Source: Gammaproteobacteria bacterium (GTDB lineage Bacteria > Pseudomonadota > Gammaproteobacteria > Steroidobacterales > JABDKV01). From it: 39,898 nt of DNA. The notes under the pieces are model-generated. The model was not told where the DNA came from and ran no database searches. It was given only the letters and a program-made list of their open reading frames with translations. The DNA is taken from the NCBI GenBank assembly GCA_013003425.1, contig JABDJB010000093.1, positions 1 to 39,898 of the forward strand, given 5' to 3'. Position 1 is the first letter of the stretch, and every line of letters begins with the position of its first letter. A program made the translations under genes and the position numbers. This document shows, in pieces, positions 12,902 to 32,553 of the stretch.

Positions 12902-12912
12902 CTGTCGGGAGT

Positions 12913-12987
12913 GCGGGTGTCGTATAACGGTTATTACCTTGGCTTCCCAAGCCAAAGATGACGGTTCGATTCCGTTCACCCGCTCCA
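12913..12987 (+). tRNA. tRNA-Gly (anticodon CCC)
   Basis: Cloverleaf folded by eye: a perfect 7-bp acceptor stem GCGGGTG / CACCCGC; an anticodon stem TTGGC / GCCAA enclosing the 7-base loop TTCCCAA, giving anticodon CCC; a T-arm GACGG / CCGTT with the loop TTCGATT; discriminator T and an encoded CCA at 12985-12987. The D-arm is of the short glycine type. Its last 32 bases are repeated at 14089-14120. Confidence 0.93.
12956..12987 (+). repeat. Direct repeat, left copy (tRNA-Gly 3' end; att-like)
   Basis: The 32-base stretch from AGATGACGG to GCTCCA at the 3' end of the tRNA gene. An identical copy lies at 14089-14120, the usual signature of integration at a tRNA 3' end. Confidence 0.85.
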
Positions 12988-13057
12988 GGATACCCGACAG
13001 ACTTGAGCTGGTTTCGTCGTTCGAGCTGGCGAATGCGAACCAACGGCGGGAACAAGG

Positions 13058-13136
13058 GGTCAAGTCTACGCGTTACGGATTTTGGTTAAGCAGCGCTTCG
13101 CGCCTGTCGAAAAACTTGTAATGCGTAGACTTGACC
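13058..13136. repeat. Long inverted repeat, MITE/REP-like
   Basis: 19-base arms (left 13058-13076, starting GGTCAAGTCTACGCG; right 13118-13136) pair at 18 of 19 positions, the exception being a G-T wobble. They enclose a 41-base centre that contains a further short hairpin around GCGCTTCGCGC. Two more G precede the left arm (GGGGTCA). The layout resembles non-autonomous elements moved by REP-associated tyrosine transposases; no transposase is nearby. It lies between the tRNA repeat and the 3' end of the gene at 13146. Confidence 0.8.
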
Positions 13137-13145
13137 GTCTTTTCT

Positions 13146-13862
13146 CTATTCGATACCCACTTCGGGCGGCGCGCCAAGCTCGTTCAACAACCCGGCAGTA
13201 CTTTCACTCACATCCCGCAATTGGATCCGGGCAACAGACCCGGTCACTATTGTACGCTTCAACAGATAAACCGAGTCGTTCCTCGACTTAAGCCGTGCCA
13301 TCACGGTTTCCGCCGGCGCGTCAGATTGTTTTGTTGTCATGTATCGGCGAAAGCTCTCCACCGGCATAACATCCCAGGCGAGGGCGCGAAGCGCGCGCAC
13401 GGCCGGCACAAAGTTTTCATCGATGGTCTTGAAGCTGTTCGCCCGATCGAGGTAATGCGTCACGATGGCCGATCGGGTGGATGGATCGGGTATCAAACGC
13501 AGCGCGCCGGTCATCTGCAGTTCTTCCCAGACGGCAGGTTGGCGCGTGATGGACTCGCCAACAAGCGATGCGATCAGCAGGCCACCCGGATCATCATGTT
13601 GCTCTTCGTCGGATTCAAGCAGCCGCAAAAGATGGGACGCTGAGTCGATCAACCTTCCGATCCTGTCATTACTCTCTGACATGGAGGCGATATCTTCCTG
13701 CAGCTCGTTGACCAGATCGTTCAGGTATACGTCGGCCACGGCGTTATCGGCGCGACGCCCGGCATACGAATCAATCGCCAGTGCCATCAGGATGCCGATG
13801 ACGATCAGGGCCAGCTCGCCCAGGGCGACTCGCCAGTTAATTTTTTCTGCTGATATGCGCAT
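13146..13862 (-). CDS. Membrane-anchored hypothetical protein, DUF6090-like
   Basis: A 238-residue protein of unknown function. After MRISAEKINWRVALGE comes one transmembrane helix (about residues 17-33, LALIVIGILMALAIDSY). The rest is largely helical and probably periplasmic, including VYLNDLVNELQEDIASM and SHLLRLLESDEE. The pattern of a short cytoplasmic start, a single helix ending in an Asp, and a helical domain with an E-L-x-x-D-I motif is like DUF6090 proteins, recalled from memory. It is the only convincing gene between the two copies of the tRNA 3' end, so it is the cargo of the putative insertion. There is no integrase signature. Confidence 0.7.
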   Translation of the reverse strand: MRISAEKINWRVALGELALIVIGILMALAIDSYAGRRADNAVADVYLNDLVNELQEDIASMSESNDRIGRLIDSASHLLRLLESDEEQHDDPGGLLIASLVGESITRQPAVWEELQMTGALRLIPDPSTRSAIVTHYLDRANSFKTIDENFVPAVRALRALAWDVMPVESFRRYMTTKQSDAPAETVMARLKSRNDSVYLLKRTIVTGSVARIQLRDVSESTAGLLNELGAPPEVGIE

Positions 13863-14211
13863 GTTTTGTCGGACTATAGACCACTATCAAGTCGCTGTGT
13901 CCTTAATTTGTTTTTTGCGTCATCTGGTGTGGTGTGAGCGCCGTCCGGGCGCAAAGATTCGCGGCAGGATGCCGTTCCGAAAAATGGGGAAAATAGTGTG
14001 GTGCACAATAGGGTGACAGATAAATGCGCAGATTCTGCCGATGGGTGGGTGGGGCAATCGAATTTTCGTTTTCCGCTTTTCAAGCTGGAGATGACGGTTC
14101 GATTCCGTTCACCCGCTCCACTCCTGTCCCGGCTGGCTGTTTCCATTCAGCGTACTCGCCCACTATCGGATTCGAGCAAGCAAATCCAGTGCGGCGGCGC
14201 GCGGAATGGCT
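13863..14211. other. Gene-free stretch holding a tRNA-Gly 3' fragment
   Basis: About 350 bases between the hypothetical gene and the MBOAT gene. The only recognisable content is the right-hand copy of the tRNA-Gly 3' end (14089-14120) and weaker similarity extending left to the anticodon-loop region (CTT..CAAGC at about 14077-14085). Short reading frames here overlap the tRNA remnant and look spurious. Confidence 0.6.
14089..14120 (+). repeat. Direct repeat, right copy (detached tRNA-Gly 3' end; att-like)
   Basis: 32 bases identical to the 3' end of the tRNA-Gly gene including CCA, but with no 5' half of a tRNA in front. It marks the far boundary of a roughly 1.13 kb segment, as expected for attL/attR after integration at the tRNA. 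Confidence 0.85.
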
Positions 14212-15657
14212 TTAGAACTGAAAATAGATAAAAGGCGTTTCCCGGCCCAGGCTGGCGATGCACATCAGGAGCAACATGCCGTAAAGAAAGCCGGTTTTTA
14301 CGCCTATGTTTCGCGCCAGTTCGTGAGAATTCCTGGCAAAGAATGCGATACCAAGCCCGGCAAGCAGAAAGGGAAAAACTTCGACGCCACCGCCTATGTC
14401 GACAATATTTGGCAGCGATCCAAACGTCGCTGATTGAATGGTGTAGGCAAAGAGCGGCTCAGACCCGTTCAATCCCAGCATTCCAGCGTATATCTCGCGC
14501 GCACGTGCGAACGAAGGTGCGCGGAAAAGCACCCAGCCGACATGTACACACAGGAAAGTAATCAGTACTGCTACCGTCGTCGGCAGGCGAAGATTCGAGA
14601 TAGTGCGCCAGGTCGTATTTATCGCCAGCAGCAAGCCATGAAACAAACCCCAGACCACAAATGTCCAGGCAGCCCCGTGCCAAAGCCCGCCGAGAAACAT
14701 GGTAATGAACAGGTTTCTTGCTGTCTTTTTCAGGCCGCCGCGGGAACCGCCCAGTGGAATGAACAGGTAATCGCGAAGGAAGTGGGACAGGGTGATATGC
14801 CAACGATTCCAGAACTCGGAGATGCTTTTTGATTTGTAAGGCGAGAGAAAGTTGAGCGGGAAGCGAAAGCCGATCATCAGTCCGAGCCCGACCGCCATAT
14901 CACTGTAGCCAGAGAAGTCGAAATACAGCTGCACCGAATATGCCAGCGTCCCCAGCCAGGCGGCACCAAACTGCACCACGCCGGTTCCGTCAAAGAGCCT
15001 GTCGGCCAGTGGCGCAACCTGGTCGGCAATGAGGAGTTTCTTCGACATTCCAATAATGAACAGTATCGCGCCATTGCTGAATTCAATGGCGTTTCGGCCG
15101 TGAACCTGCAGACGGCGAATCTGCTCCGCCATCATTCCGTATCGAACAATCGGGCCGGCTATCAACTGTGGAAAAAGGGAGACGTAAGCAGCGAAATGCA
15201 GGAAGTCCGGGGCCGGTTCTGCGTCACCGCGATAGATGTCCAGGGAATAGCTGATGCTCTGGAAGGTATAAAAAGAAATGCCGAGAGGCAGAATAATGTG
15301 AAGCAGTGGCGCGTCAATGGACACGCCGAACGCTGCAAAAGACGCGGCGAACGACTGGACAAAAAAATCGTAGTACTTGAAAAACCCTAGAAAACTGAGA
15401 TTAACAACCAGTGAGCATGCCAGGAACAGACGTTTTCGACTGACGGCTGTTGCGCGATGTATGGCGGCGCCGCAAAAGAAATCTACCACGGTAGATGCCG
15501 CCAGCAGAGTAACAAACCGGTAATCCCACCAGGCGTAGAACACGTAGCTGGCCAGCGTCAGAAAAAGCAGCCGGAACCGGAATGAAAGGCGTGACAGCCA
15601 GACCAGCAGCACCAGCGGCAGGAAGCAGAACAGGAATATGTAGCTCGGGAAGATCAC
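14212..15657 (-). CDS. MBOAT O-acyltransferase, AlgI/DltB-like
   Basis: Polytopic membrane enzyme that probably passes acyl groups (often acetyl) from the cytoplasm to an extracytoplasmic glycan or other acceptor. MBOAT hallmarks are present: SLFPQLIAGPIVRY, YFDFSGYSDMAVGLG, EFWNRWHITLSHFLRDYLFIPLGG (in parts) and the catalytic His in LGGLWHGAAWTF. I choose the GTG at 15657: it gives the family-typical start MIFPSYIFLFCFLPL, overlaps the upstream stop as GTGA, and has GTGGAA about 10 bases upstream. A GTG at 15672 is the alternative. About 481 residues. Confidence 0.9.
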   Translation of the reverse strand: MIFPSYIFLFCFLPLVLLVWLSRLSFRFRLLFLTLASYVFYAWWDYRFVTLLAASTVVDFFCGAAIHRATAVSRKRLFLACSLVVNLSFLGFFKYYDFFVQSFAASFAAFGVSIDAPLLHIILPLGISFYTFQSISYSLDIYRGDAEPAPDFLHFAAYVSLFPQLIAGPIVRYGMMAEQIRRLQVHGRNAIEFSNGAILFIIGMSKKLLIADQVAPLADRLFDGTGVVQFGAAWLGTLAYSVQLYFDFSGYSDMAVGLGLMIGFRFPLNFLSPYKSKSISEFWNRWHITLSHFLRDYLFIPLGGSRGGLKKTARNLFITMFLGGLWHGAAWTFVVWGLFHGLLLAINTTWRTISNLRLPTTVAVLITFLCVHVGWVLFRAPSFARAREIYAGMLGLNGSEPLFAYTIQSATFGSLPNIVDIGGGVEVFPFLLAGLGIAFFARNSHELARNIGVKTGFLYGMLLLMCIASLGRETPFIYFQF

Positions 15658-16904
15658 CGGGCTTTGTTCCACTCATTTGCTATGGCGCGCAGGATCAGGT
15701 CGGAGTTATCAGGTGTCATGTGATAACGGTCGAAAAAAGCGTCAGGCGTGCCGTCGAACCTGGCTATATGCGACGCGTCAAATACCAGCTTTACGGAGGG
15801 GAAGCGGTCGGCGAGCTGTTTCAGGTGCGCACGCAGGTCATCCAGGTGCTGCGCGTGCCGTGTATGGGCCAGCAGGACGTCAAAGAAGTATGGATGTACC
15901 GGCAGCATCAGGATTACAACTTCGACGTTGTTCTGGTTCAGATACTCGATGGTGCGGTCAAACAGCTGCAGGTCCTCGGCGTCCATGCTGTCGCCCGGCA
16001 GGAAATTCACTGCATCGTCGAGGCGTATGTGACCGGAGTCCACGGCCAGGCGCCGTGCGGCGTCGAGCCGCAGAATATCGCTTTCGCTAGTCATGCGCGG
16101 CACGGCCTGATTGTAAATCCCGTTTATTTCCTCAGGAAGGAATGGCTCTGCCTCGCGCCGTGCATGGCCGCGATTCGTGCCATCCTCCAGAAAAGGAGAT
16201 CGGTCGGCCAATAGCGGTACGGGTGACGTGTCATCGACAGGATCGAAGCCGATCGGTGGTAACGCTACGTGAGAAAACCTGTGCCGCAGCGACATTCGCA
16301 ACATAAGGCGGAGACTTTGAAATGTCAGGCTGTCCATGAAAGTGGATACGTACCATCGAAGCGGATGATACTCAGGCAGATATTTGGCCAGTGCAGGTGT
16401 CGCCAGCAAGCGGCGCCGGTATTTCGACATTAGCGGCGGACCACGCTGGTCGTTAGCGAAAGTCCACGGCTCAATACCTAGAATTACCAGTTTTGGCTGC
16501 GATTGAAGATCGCGGGTGACAAAATTGGACCACGCCCACAAGTCCTCCGCGCGCCCCCAGAACGCGGCCAGGTTGAAAGTCCGGCGGACTGGAAGCAGGT
16601 CATCGACAAGACCTGACTGAAACGACATCATGTTTGACGATCCCATGATGTAGGCATCAGGTAGATCATCCGGGGGTAGCTGCTGCAGGTACTCGACCTT
16701 TCCGATCCGGCCATTAAGAAACTCGAACTGCCCGGCTGGCCCGAAGTAACCGTAGTGATTACTGAGAACTGAAAAGCCAACCAGCGTCGCAGACACGATG
16801 AGCACGAAGACAATCATCGTCCAGAGGAAGCGGCGGGCATCACGCGGTGTTGCCGGCTCTACCCGAGCTATCGGCTCTTTACTGTAGTCAACCAAGGGTG
16901 TCAC
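15654..16904 (-). CDS. SGNH-like membrane-anchored partner of the MBOAT enzyme
   Basis: A 416-residue protein with one N-terminal transmembrane helix (about residues 29-48, LWTMIVFVLIVSATLVGFSV) and a periplasmic domain. SGNH-like blocks are visible: GSSNMMS (residues about 88-94, the Ser nucleophile position) and DRYHMTPD near the C-terminus (Asp-x-x-His). This matches AlgJ/DltD-type partners that complete O-acylation outside the membrane. It is translationally coupled to the MBOAT gene by a 4-base overlap. The start must be the GTG at 16904, because an in-frame TGA lies directly upstream. Confidence 0.8.
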   Translation of the reverse strand: MTPLVDYSKEPIARVEPATPRDARRFLWTMIVFVLIVSATLVGFSVLSNHYGYFGPAGQFEFLNGRIGKVEYLQQLPPDDLPDAYIMGSSNMMSFQSGLVDDLLPVRRTFNLAAFWGRAEDLWAWSNFVTRDLQSQPKLVILGIEPWTFANDQRGPPLMSKYRRRLLATPALAKYLPEYHPLRWYVSTFMDSLTFQSLRLMLRMSLRHRFSHVALPPIGFDPVDDTSPVPLLADRSPFLEDGTNRGHARREAEPFLPEEINGIYNQAVPRMTSESDILRLDAARRLAVDSGHIRLDDAVNFLPGDSMDAEDLQLFDRTIEYLNQNNVEVVILMLPVHPYFFDVLLAHTRHAQHLDDLRAHLKQLADRFPSVKLVFDASHIARFDGTPDAFFDRYHMTPDNSDLILRAIANEWNKAR

Positions 16905-17095: not shown

Positions 17096-18088
17096 TCACA
17101 GGCGTTCCCGCAATGATCGCAGCAGGCCGCGCAACGTGCCGGTATCGCAGGCAACCAGTCCGCCAAGCTTGCGGCTGCCGGACATCCAGTCACGTTTGTA
17201 CGACTCGTCGCCGACGCCATAGTCGATTTCGGTTACATTGTCGCTGTCCAGCGCGTGCGCGAACATGGCGCGCGACAAAATCGAACCAACGGACAACTCG
17301 CCAAATTGTTCATCGTAAGCCAGCTTGTAGATGTAGCTGCGCTCACCGTCCTTTATCCAGAATTGAGCTGCTGCGGGCTTGCGATCCACGGTTGCCATGC
17401 CGATACGGCCAATCTCATGTGCGTCACACAGCCGCAGCAGTGACGGTATGAACTGTTCAAACGGTTCGGCGTCTTTCCAGCTGGCCGCATAAACTGCCTG
17501 AAAATGAGCCAGCGCCTGCTCGATCGAAATGCCGCCACGCGGGTAGATTTCCAGCCGCAAATCGTGTTCGCGTGCTGTCTTGCGGGCCTTTCGCTCGACG
17601 GTATTACGCAATTGTGAGCTGCGTTGCCGGTAATACGAATCAAAATCCTCGCCGCCAGTTTCCAGGTACCAGTTTTCGTACTGCGGCCACGGGTAAACGC
17701 GGTAACCGGAACGCCGCGCAGCGGTCTGCAGCGCTGCACTGTCGTCGTCATGCAGGTAGCGAAAGTCGAGCACCGACCAGCGCGGCCGTTCCGCCGCGAT
17801 AAACTCGAAAATTTCGTGCAGGCCGTTGTTGTTGCCACACGGGCCATAGTCAACGGTGTAGAAATTGCTCAGACCCTGTAGTGTGGTCTGACGCTGATGG
17901 CAAAACAGTGCGCACAGATCTGTTCCACTGGTTACATAGATACGTAAAGCCGGATTCTCCATGCCGTTGTTTGCCAGGCACTCGAACCATTCGAGGCTGC
18001 GAAAGAATGACGCCCCGCCGTGCAGCGACAGGCGGTGGCGCAGGTCGCCACGTAACGATTCGAACGATTCATAGACATGTACAGCCAT
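17096..18088 (-). CDS. GNAT-fold acyltransferase (FemAB / Acetyltransf_6 type)
   Basis: A 330-residue cytoplasmic protein with the double-GNAT appearance of the BioF2-like/CelD family. Characteristic parts are SQLRNTVERKARKTARE (a basic helix before the core), ALAHFQAVYAASWK, AAAQFWIKDGERSYIYKLAYDE and the C-terminal TEIDYGVGDESYKRDW (each shown partly). Members transfer acyl or aminoacyl groups; the substrate cannot be read from sequence. Its ATG overlaps the stop of the aminotransferase gene (ATGA), so it is the last gene of the sulfotransferase-aminotransferase-GNAT operon. Confidence 0.83.
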   Translation of the reverse strand: MAVHVYESFESLRGDLRHRLSLHGGASFFRSLEWFECLANNGMENPALRIYVTSGTDLCALFCHQRQTTLQGLSNFYTVDYGPCGNNNGLHEIFEFIAAERPRWSVLDFRYLHDDDSAALQTAARRSGYRVYPWPQYENWYLETGGEDFDSYYRQRSSQLRNTVERKARKTAREHDLRLEIYPRGGISIEQALAHFQAVYAASWKDAEPFEQFIPSLLRLCDAHEIGRIGMATVDRKPAAAQFWIKDGERSYIYKLAYDEQFGELSVGSILSRAMFAHALDSDNVTEIDYGVGDESYKRDWMSGSRKLGGLVACDTGTLRGLLRSLRERL

Positions 18089-32450: not shown

Positions 32451-32488
32451 GGGGACAGTACATGTATATGCATACATGTACTGTCCCC
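32451..32488. repeat. REP-like palindrome, copy 2, between hpnH and hpnM
   Basis: A perfect inverted repeat with 17-bp arms (GGGGACAGTACATGTAT at 32451-32467, its complement at 32472-32488) and an ATGC centre. It is the sister of the element at 2651-2688 and differs by one paired change in the arms plus one central base. It sits 10 bases after hpnH and 65 bases before hpnM. With no T run it is not a standard terminator, but in RNA it would fold into a stable hairpin that could affect hpnM expression or mRNA stability. Confidence 0.9.
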
Positions 32489-32553
32489 TCAGCTGAACCT
32501 CTGCCGGAATGACAACTCCAACGGAAAGGCCAGTCACTGGATGGCATTACACA

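Follow-up and report, generated by a model that had tools for sequence, protein, structure and literature searches.

A possible takeover of a tRNA-Gly(CCC) gene by a foreign allele, with a putative relic of the native gene beside it, in a gammaproteobacterial genome

tRNA genes are classic integration sites and are usually seen as passive targets that have their 3′ end restored. The window, that is, the whole stretch of 39,898 nucleotides analysed here, is contig C93 of a 3.26-Mb draft genome (G000; 115 contigs, 95.5% complete). In it, ARAGORN calls a tRNA-Gly(CCC) gene at 12913-12987 on the plus strand, and the last 32 bp of this gene (12956-12987) recur exactly at 14089-14120, with an interval of 1.1 kb (12988-14088) between the two exact copies. 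This arrangement raises two questions. First, is the segment between the copies the trace of an insertion at the tRNA gene? Second, how are the two copies related to each other and to the tRNA gene that congeners carry at this locus?

The exact repeat of the tRNA 3′ end, reported in the earlier note, was confirmed. Beyond the 32-bp core it extends to 46 bp at 89% identity (12942-12987 on the plus strand for the proximal copy, 14075-14120 for the distal one) and starts at the anticodon arm. No exact direct repeat in the window is longer than this core, and a 31-mer from it has a chance expectation of 0.00 there. The 32-bp sequence has only two copies across the 3.26-Mb assembly, the 31-mer has an exact match in none of the 395 other genomes of the order, and a search of viral contigs for the repeat core found none. 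A check of composition, which had been proposed earlier, gave a divided answer: the GC content of the segment (0.550) is lower than that of the left flank (0.596) and equal to that of the right flank (0.548).

The tRNA at 12913-12987 is the sole CCC tRNA among the 30 tRNA loci examined (37 were found in the assembly). It agrees at 72 of 75 positions with its counterpart in G047, which belongs to another family, and shares 74-78% identity with the tRNAs of most relatives. Being closer to G047 than to the congeners, whose gene it does not resemble, this working gene, here called allele A, is read as foreign. A 9-bp inverted repeat, TCTGTCGGG / CCCGACAGA, read directly from the sequence, lies in its leader and trailer (12902-13001).

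The congeners carry their native tRNA-Gly(CCC) in minus-strand orientation with respect to the neighbours that they share with the window. It is located 175 bp from thiS in G001, 2.3 kb from the GNAT gene in G002, and close to the GNAT gene in G003, where the thiS and GNAT neighbours are both seen. The GNAT gene of the window is at 17096-18088, and the thiS-GNAT region of the window is lineage-specific and low in GC. Neither the 238-aa gene of the segment, described below, nor the second repeat is present at the congeners' locus; relatives that have the gene and lack the second repeat, a pattern that would point to an old duplication without mobility, were not seen. The nearest genomes, ~75% identical and with another tRNA and other genes here, yielded no empty site for G000. 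Also missing from the congeners' locus are the low-GC genes at 14212-16904, encoding an MBOAT O-acyltransferase and a 416-aa protein, which are possibly part of the same acquired block as the segment.

Through a comparison of alleles, the two copies of the repeat are found to be different tRNA alleles. At 14081-14120 the distal copy is identical at 39 of 40 positions to allele B, carried by G316 of a third family, and it has GCTGG where the window tRNA has GCCAA. With this closer fit to allele B, it is not explained by a simple local duplication. It forms the right arm (14075-14120, plus strand) of a hairpin at 14042-14120 with a minimum free energy of -36.1 kcal/mol (z -5.6; none of 500 shuffles equally stable), and among 24 tRNA-fragment junctions comparable folding was seen in terminator-like cases only. 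On the minus strand, the left arm (14040-14077) reads as a tRNA-Gly 3′ half with its CCA end, and the distal copy adjoins it back to back; this tRNA-like match has a null of 0.0027 among 51-mers of the window and was reached in none of 500 shuffles. The alignment score of the left arm is 32 to the allele of G011 and 28 to the native alleles of the congeners, compared with 20 to allele A, 18 to allele B and 20 to the right arm. Given its lesser resemblance to the right arm, it is not merely a copy of that arm. Its strand and neighbourhood match those of the congeners' native tRNA-Gly(CCC), and it is best read as a decayed 38-nt relic of the native minus-strand gene, an assignment made on a modest score margin. 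The strong fold at 14.1 kb is explained by this inverted tRNA 3′ half. The 5′ half of the native tRNA was sought in the window and not found. A second complete tRNA gene at 14045-14120 was considered and rejected, with an Rfam score of 25.5 bits, below the cut-off, and a 5′ part that aligns with tRNA 5′ halves no better than chance. The distal copy thus belongs to another allele and is fused back to back with a native-type relic, so it cannot be taken as a plain attR of the adjacent tRNA gene.

The contents of the segment are as they had been described from the sequence: one membrane-anchored hypothetical gene, an inverted repeat and no integrase. The gene (13146-13862, minus strand) encodes a 238-aa protein with a single N-terminal membrane anchor and a weak similarity to DUF6090 (E 0.0012, below the cut-off). 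Three relatives share 57-66% identity with it and a number are weaker; the nearest named one comes from a Woeseia MAG. None of the relatives checked for an adjoining tRNA has one, no relative occurs in IMG/VR viral contigs, and PHROG and PADLOC gave no match. It is likely the cargo of the segment. The inverted repeat, which the earlier note had called MITE-like, spans 79 bp (13058-13136) with 26-nt arms (13058-13083 and 13111-13136) that are 85% complementary. Relatives of this imperfect palindrome lie in the same genome on contig C103 and, on contig C64, beside the gene of an IS200-like transposase (Y1_Tnp, RAYT-type); judging by this company, it is an ordinary REPIN-like insertion. A short repeat at 13932-13978 is 81% identical to two places on contig C12. 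Elsewhere in the window, a further palindromic repeat, GGGGRCAGTACATGT...TATGCATACATGTACTG, has two copies, at 2651-2690 and 32451-32490. Neither an integrase nor a relic of one was found inside the segment, and the three Phage_integrase matches in the assembly are all on contigs other than C93. A trans-acting integrase encoded in the genome was considered and rejected: the candidates are just two Xer-sized proteins and one 217-aa protein, none of them at the tRNA locus. A phage or plasmid origin of the segment was likewise rejected, as the matches to phage and plasmid DNA cover only the tRNA or its partial copy. The ends of the segment share no sequence with those of G026, G072 (see below) or the other loci compared.

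Do insertions of this shape occur elsewhere in the order? We surveyed 104 tRNA-Gly(CCC) loci, with 95 other tRNAs of distinct sequence as a control. Three of the 104 loci, namely those of the window, G026 and G072, have a copied 3′ half that runs from the anticodon loop to the CCA end. In G026 (L181), a 3.2-kb insertion at tRNA-Gly(CCC) carries a 733-aa gene and a 44-bp copy of the 3′ half, without an integrase. Its congener G013 is empty here: the two genomes are collinear at 89% identity up to the tRNA, and the flank of G013 resumes at 79% directly past the 44-bp copy of G026. This pair of occupied and empty sites shows that integrase-less insertions of such shape do occur in the order. In G072 (L218), an 11.7-kb element is bounded by the tRNA-Gly and a 45-bp copy of its 3′ half (positions 30-74) and encodes a 365-aa tyrosine integrase (Pfam 7e-27; PHROG integrase 3e-49) as well as a helicase-like protein. 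Partial copies in general are common. They lie near 23 of the 104 tRNA-Gly(CCC) loci and 15 of the 95 other tRNAs (many controls having just 1.5 kb of flank), mostly 14-27 nt long and 100-250 bp away, while 3′-half copies of at least 32 nt at more than 1 kb occur at 3/104 and 1/95, respectively. Since partial tRNA copies are so common in this order, a repeat alone is weaker evidence of integration than usual, and the view that it is a hallmark of integration at a tRNA does not hold here.

Several other repeats derived from tRNAs were seen during this survey. A dispersed unit of ~300 bp comprises the tRNA-Gly promoter region, the tRNA 5′ half (positions 1-37) and a conserved tail with a hairpin (GTGGTC..GACCAC) and a CTGAGTATGCTCAGTTTT terminator-like end; copies lie at L317:9494-9790, L232:2970-3265, L224:1050-1346, L235:12949-13240, L320:12617-12910 and L236:4304-4512. 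Its junction motif occurs in 26 of 296 genomes from four families or more, with up to 6 copies per genome, and Rfam gave nothing beyond a weak tRNA match. The unit is possibly a tRNA-derived small RNA or a SINE-like repeat; a family of mobile cassettes bearing the promoter and positions 1-37 was considered and dropped, as the alignment shows a dispersed ~300-bp repeat rather than cassette ends. In family f11 (L204, L203, L205, L202, L207), further copies of tRNA-Gly 3′ ends, 20-27 nt long, follow the tRNA at a distance of 0.9-8.6 kb, with three in tandem in L204; most have similar sequence on both sides, and ordinary genes and no integrase were seen between. At L049:11443-11690, L050:6522-6696 and L109:2969-3092, 18-nt tRNA-Gly 5′ ends lie upstream of the tRNA in repeated ~124-bp units that carry a double-hairpin palindrome ending in GGATGCC, and a similar 18-nt copy also lies upstream of tRNA-Gly(TCC). 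At L054:2243-2260, L163:13815-13833 and L188:13814-13832, 18-19-nt tRNA-Gly 3′ ends are repeated at ~172-bp intervals, together with the terminator in L054, which recalls the rtT repeats of E. coli tyrT. Longer fragments were also noted. In G004 (L058:1228-1400), a complete, divergent tRNA-Gly(CCC) is closely preceded by a native-type tRNA-Gly 5′ half, an apparent further tRNA replacement. G162 (L236:3836-6550) has a chimeric tRNA-Gly, with a native 5′ half and a 3′ half of allele A, and an allele A 5′ half 2.6 kb upstream. In the congener G003 (L311:5001-8672), the 3′ half of tRNA-Thr(TGT) has a second copy 3.6 kb downstream, and no integrase lies between the two.

An insertion at tRNA-Gly(CCC) is the best reading of the repeat. 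More specifically, we propose that the locus is the scar of a DNA insertion in which a foreign tRNA took over and the native gene was broken, a proposal that we consider about evenly balanced between right and wrong. At the start, thiS and the GNAT gene would have flanked a native minus-strand tRNA-Gly(CCC). An incoming element or DNA fragment would have recombined at the anticodon-to-3′ half of tRNA-Gly, the exchange being made either by a tyrosine recombinase of the incoming element or by homologous recombination between tRNA alleles. This would have split the native gene at its anticodon arm, where the plus-strand foreign 3′ half (14081-14120) now adjoins it. Allele A would have arrived as the replacement along with the DNA that today separates thiS from this breakpoint, and the 238-aa gene would have stayed behind as cargo. 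The recombinase gene would have been lost, or was never in the inserted piece, and the RAYT-mobilised palindromic repeat would have inserted beside the tRNA. The direct repeat corresponds to the 3′-half sequence, from anticodon arm to CCA, that insertions at tRNA-Gly(CCC) copy in this order. This order of events is inferred.

The takeover is supported by an exact repeat unique in the genome and in the order, by the G026/G013 pair and the integrase-bearing G072 element with the same boundary, and by the conjunction of a foreign working allele, a distal copy of allele B and a native-type relic on the minus strand. It is weakened by a segment without an integrase and with ends unmatched at the other loci compared, by a cargo gene whose relatives lie away from tRNAs, by the missing native 5′ half in the window and the missing empty site for G000, and by a relic of only 38 nt assigned as native on a modest difference in score.

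A simpler history, in essence that of the earlier note, is possible though doubtful: an integrase inserted the segment into allele A, the tRNA is attL and 14075-14120 is attR, the integrase was later lost as in CIMEs, and the minus-strand arm is the element's own end. The exact 32-bp core, a boundary from anticodon arm to CCA equal to that of the G072 element and of the G026 insertion (empty in G013), and a content without integrase like that of decayed elements (CIMEs, PMC5704250) all agree with it. Insertion with a copied 3′ half, as that note had supposed, does occur in the order; however, the two copies here are different alleles, and a simple remnant leaves unexplained both a wholly foreign working tRNA and an inner end made of a decayed native-type tRNA half on the strand of the congeners' gene.

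Partial duplication of the tRNA without site-specific recombination, through replication slippage, template switching at the hairpin or recombination between tRNA alleles, is improbable. The frequent copies near both classes of tRNA in the survey, the tandem 124-bp units with tRNA 5′ ends in G001 and G003, and the strong hairpin in which the distal copy sits would suit such a process. However, most known copies are far shorter and closer to their tRNA than this one, the rare long and distant ones include a case with an empty site in a congener, and the allele difference speaks against local copying. A contig misjoin, conceivable in a draft of 115 contigs with a 32-bp repeat, is highly improbable, as the flanking genes, thiS to the left and GNAT to the right, agree with the congeners' gene order and the repeat is shorter than the k-mers with which assemblers normally end.

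Returning to the takeover, its meaning lies in a resident tRNA gene that seems to have been disrupted and succeeded by a foreign allele while its wreck can still be recognised, which departs from the view of tRNA genes as passive targets. The occurrence of integrase-bearing and integrase-less cases at one gene makes a takeover testable, with the caution that in this order partial tRNA copies alone are no proof of integration. A wider proposal, which we regard as rather unlikely, is that insertions pass tRNA-Gly(CCC) from family to family within this order: they would disrupt the resident gene at the anticodon, install a foreign allele with small cargo genes and be mobilised in trans by recombinases whose genes lie elsewhere. 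The window would then show one such takeover in which the old gene is still visible.

One of the closest known systems is the cis-mobilizable element (CIME) as defined in PMC5704250. Like a CIME, the window segment lies between direct repeats containing the target tRNA's 3′ end and has no integration or transfer genes inside; unlike in a CIME, these repeats represent two different tRNA alleles, and the distal repeat adjoins a native tRNA relic. At most, the segment would work like a CIME with putative att sites. Integrase-less genomic islands at ssrA are known in Dehalococcoides (PMC3146451), where small cargo segments are similarly delimited by 3′-end copies of a tRNA-like gene and many of them lack an integration module; those islands form tandem arrays beside integrase-bearing islands and use a serine recombinase, whereas the window has a single segment at tRNA-Gly. 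The G026 insertion shares with the window the target tRNA, a 3′-half copy (44 bp), the lack of an integrase and one large gene without a Pfam match, and differs in keeping its native tRNA allele without an inverted relic. The G072 element has the same tRNA and the same boundary from anticodon loop to CCA; in contrast to the window segment, it carries its own tyrosine integrase inside the repeats, as a complete tRNA element of this class does, along with the helicase-like protein, and its 45-bp copy matches its own tRNA at every position.
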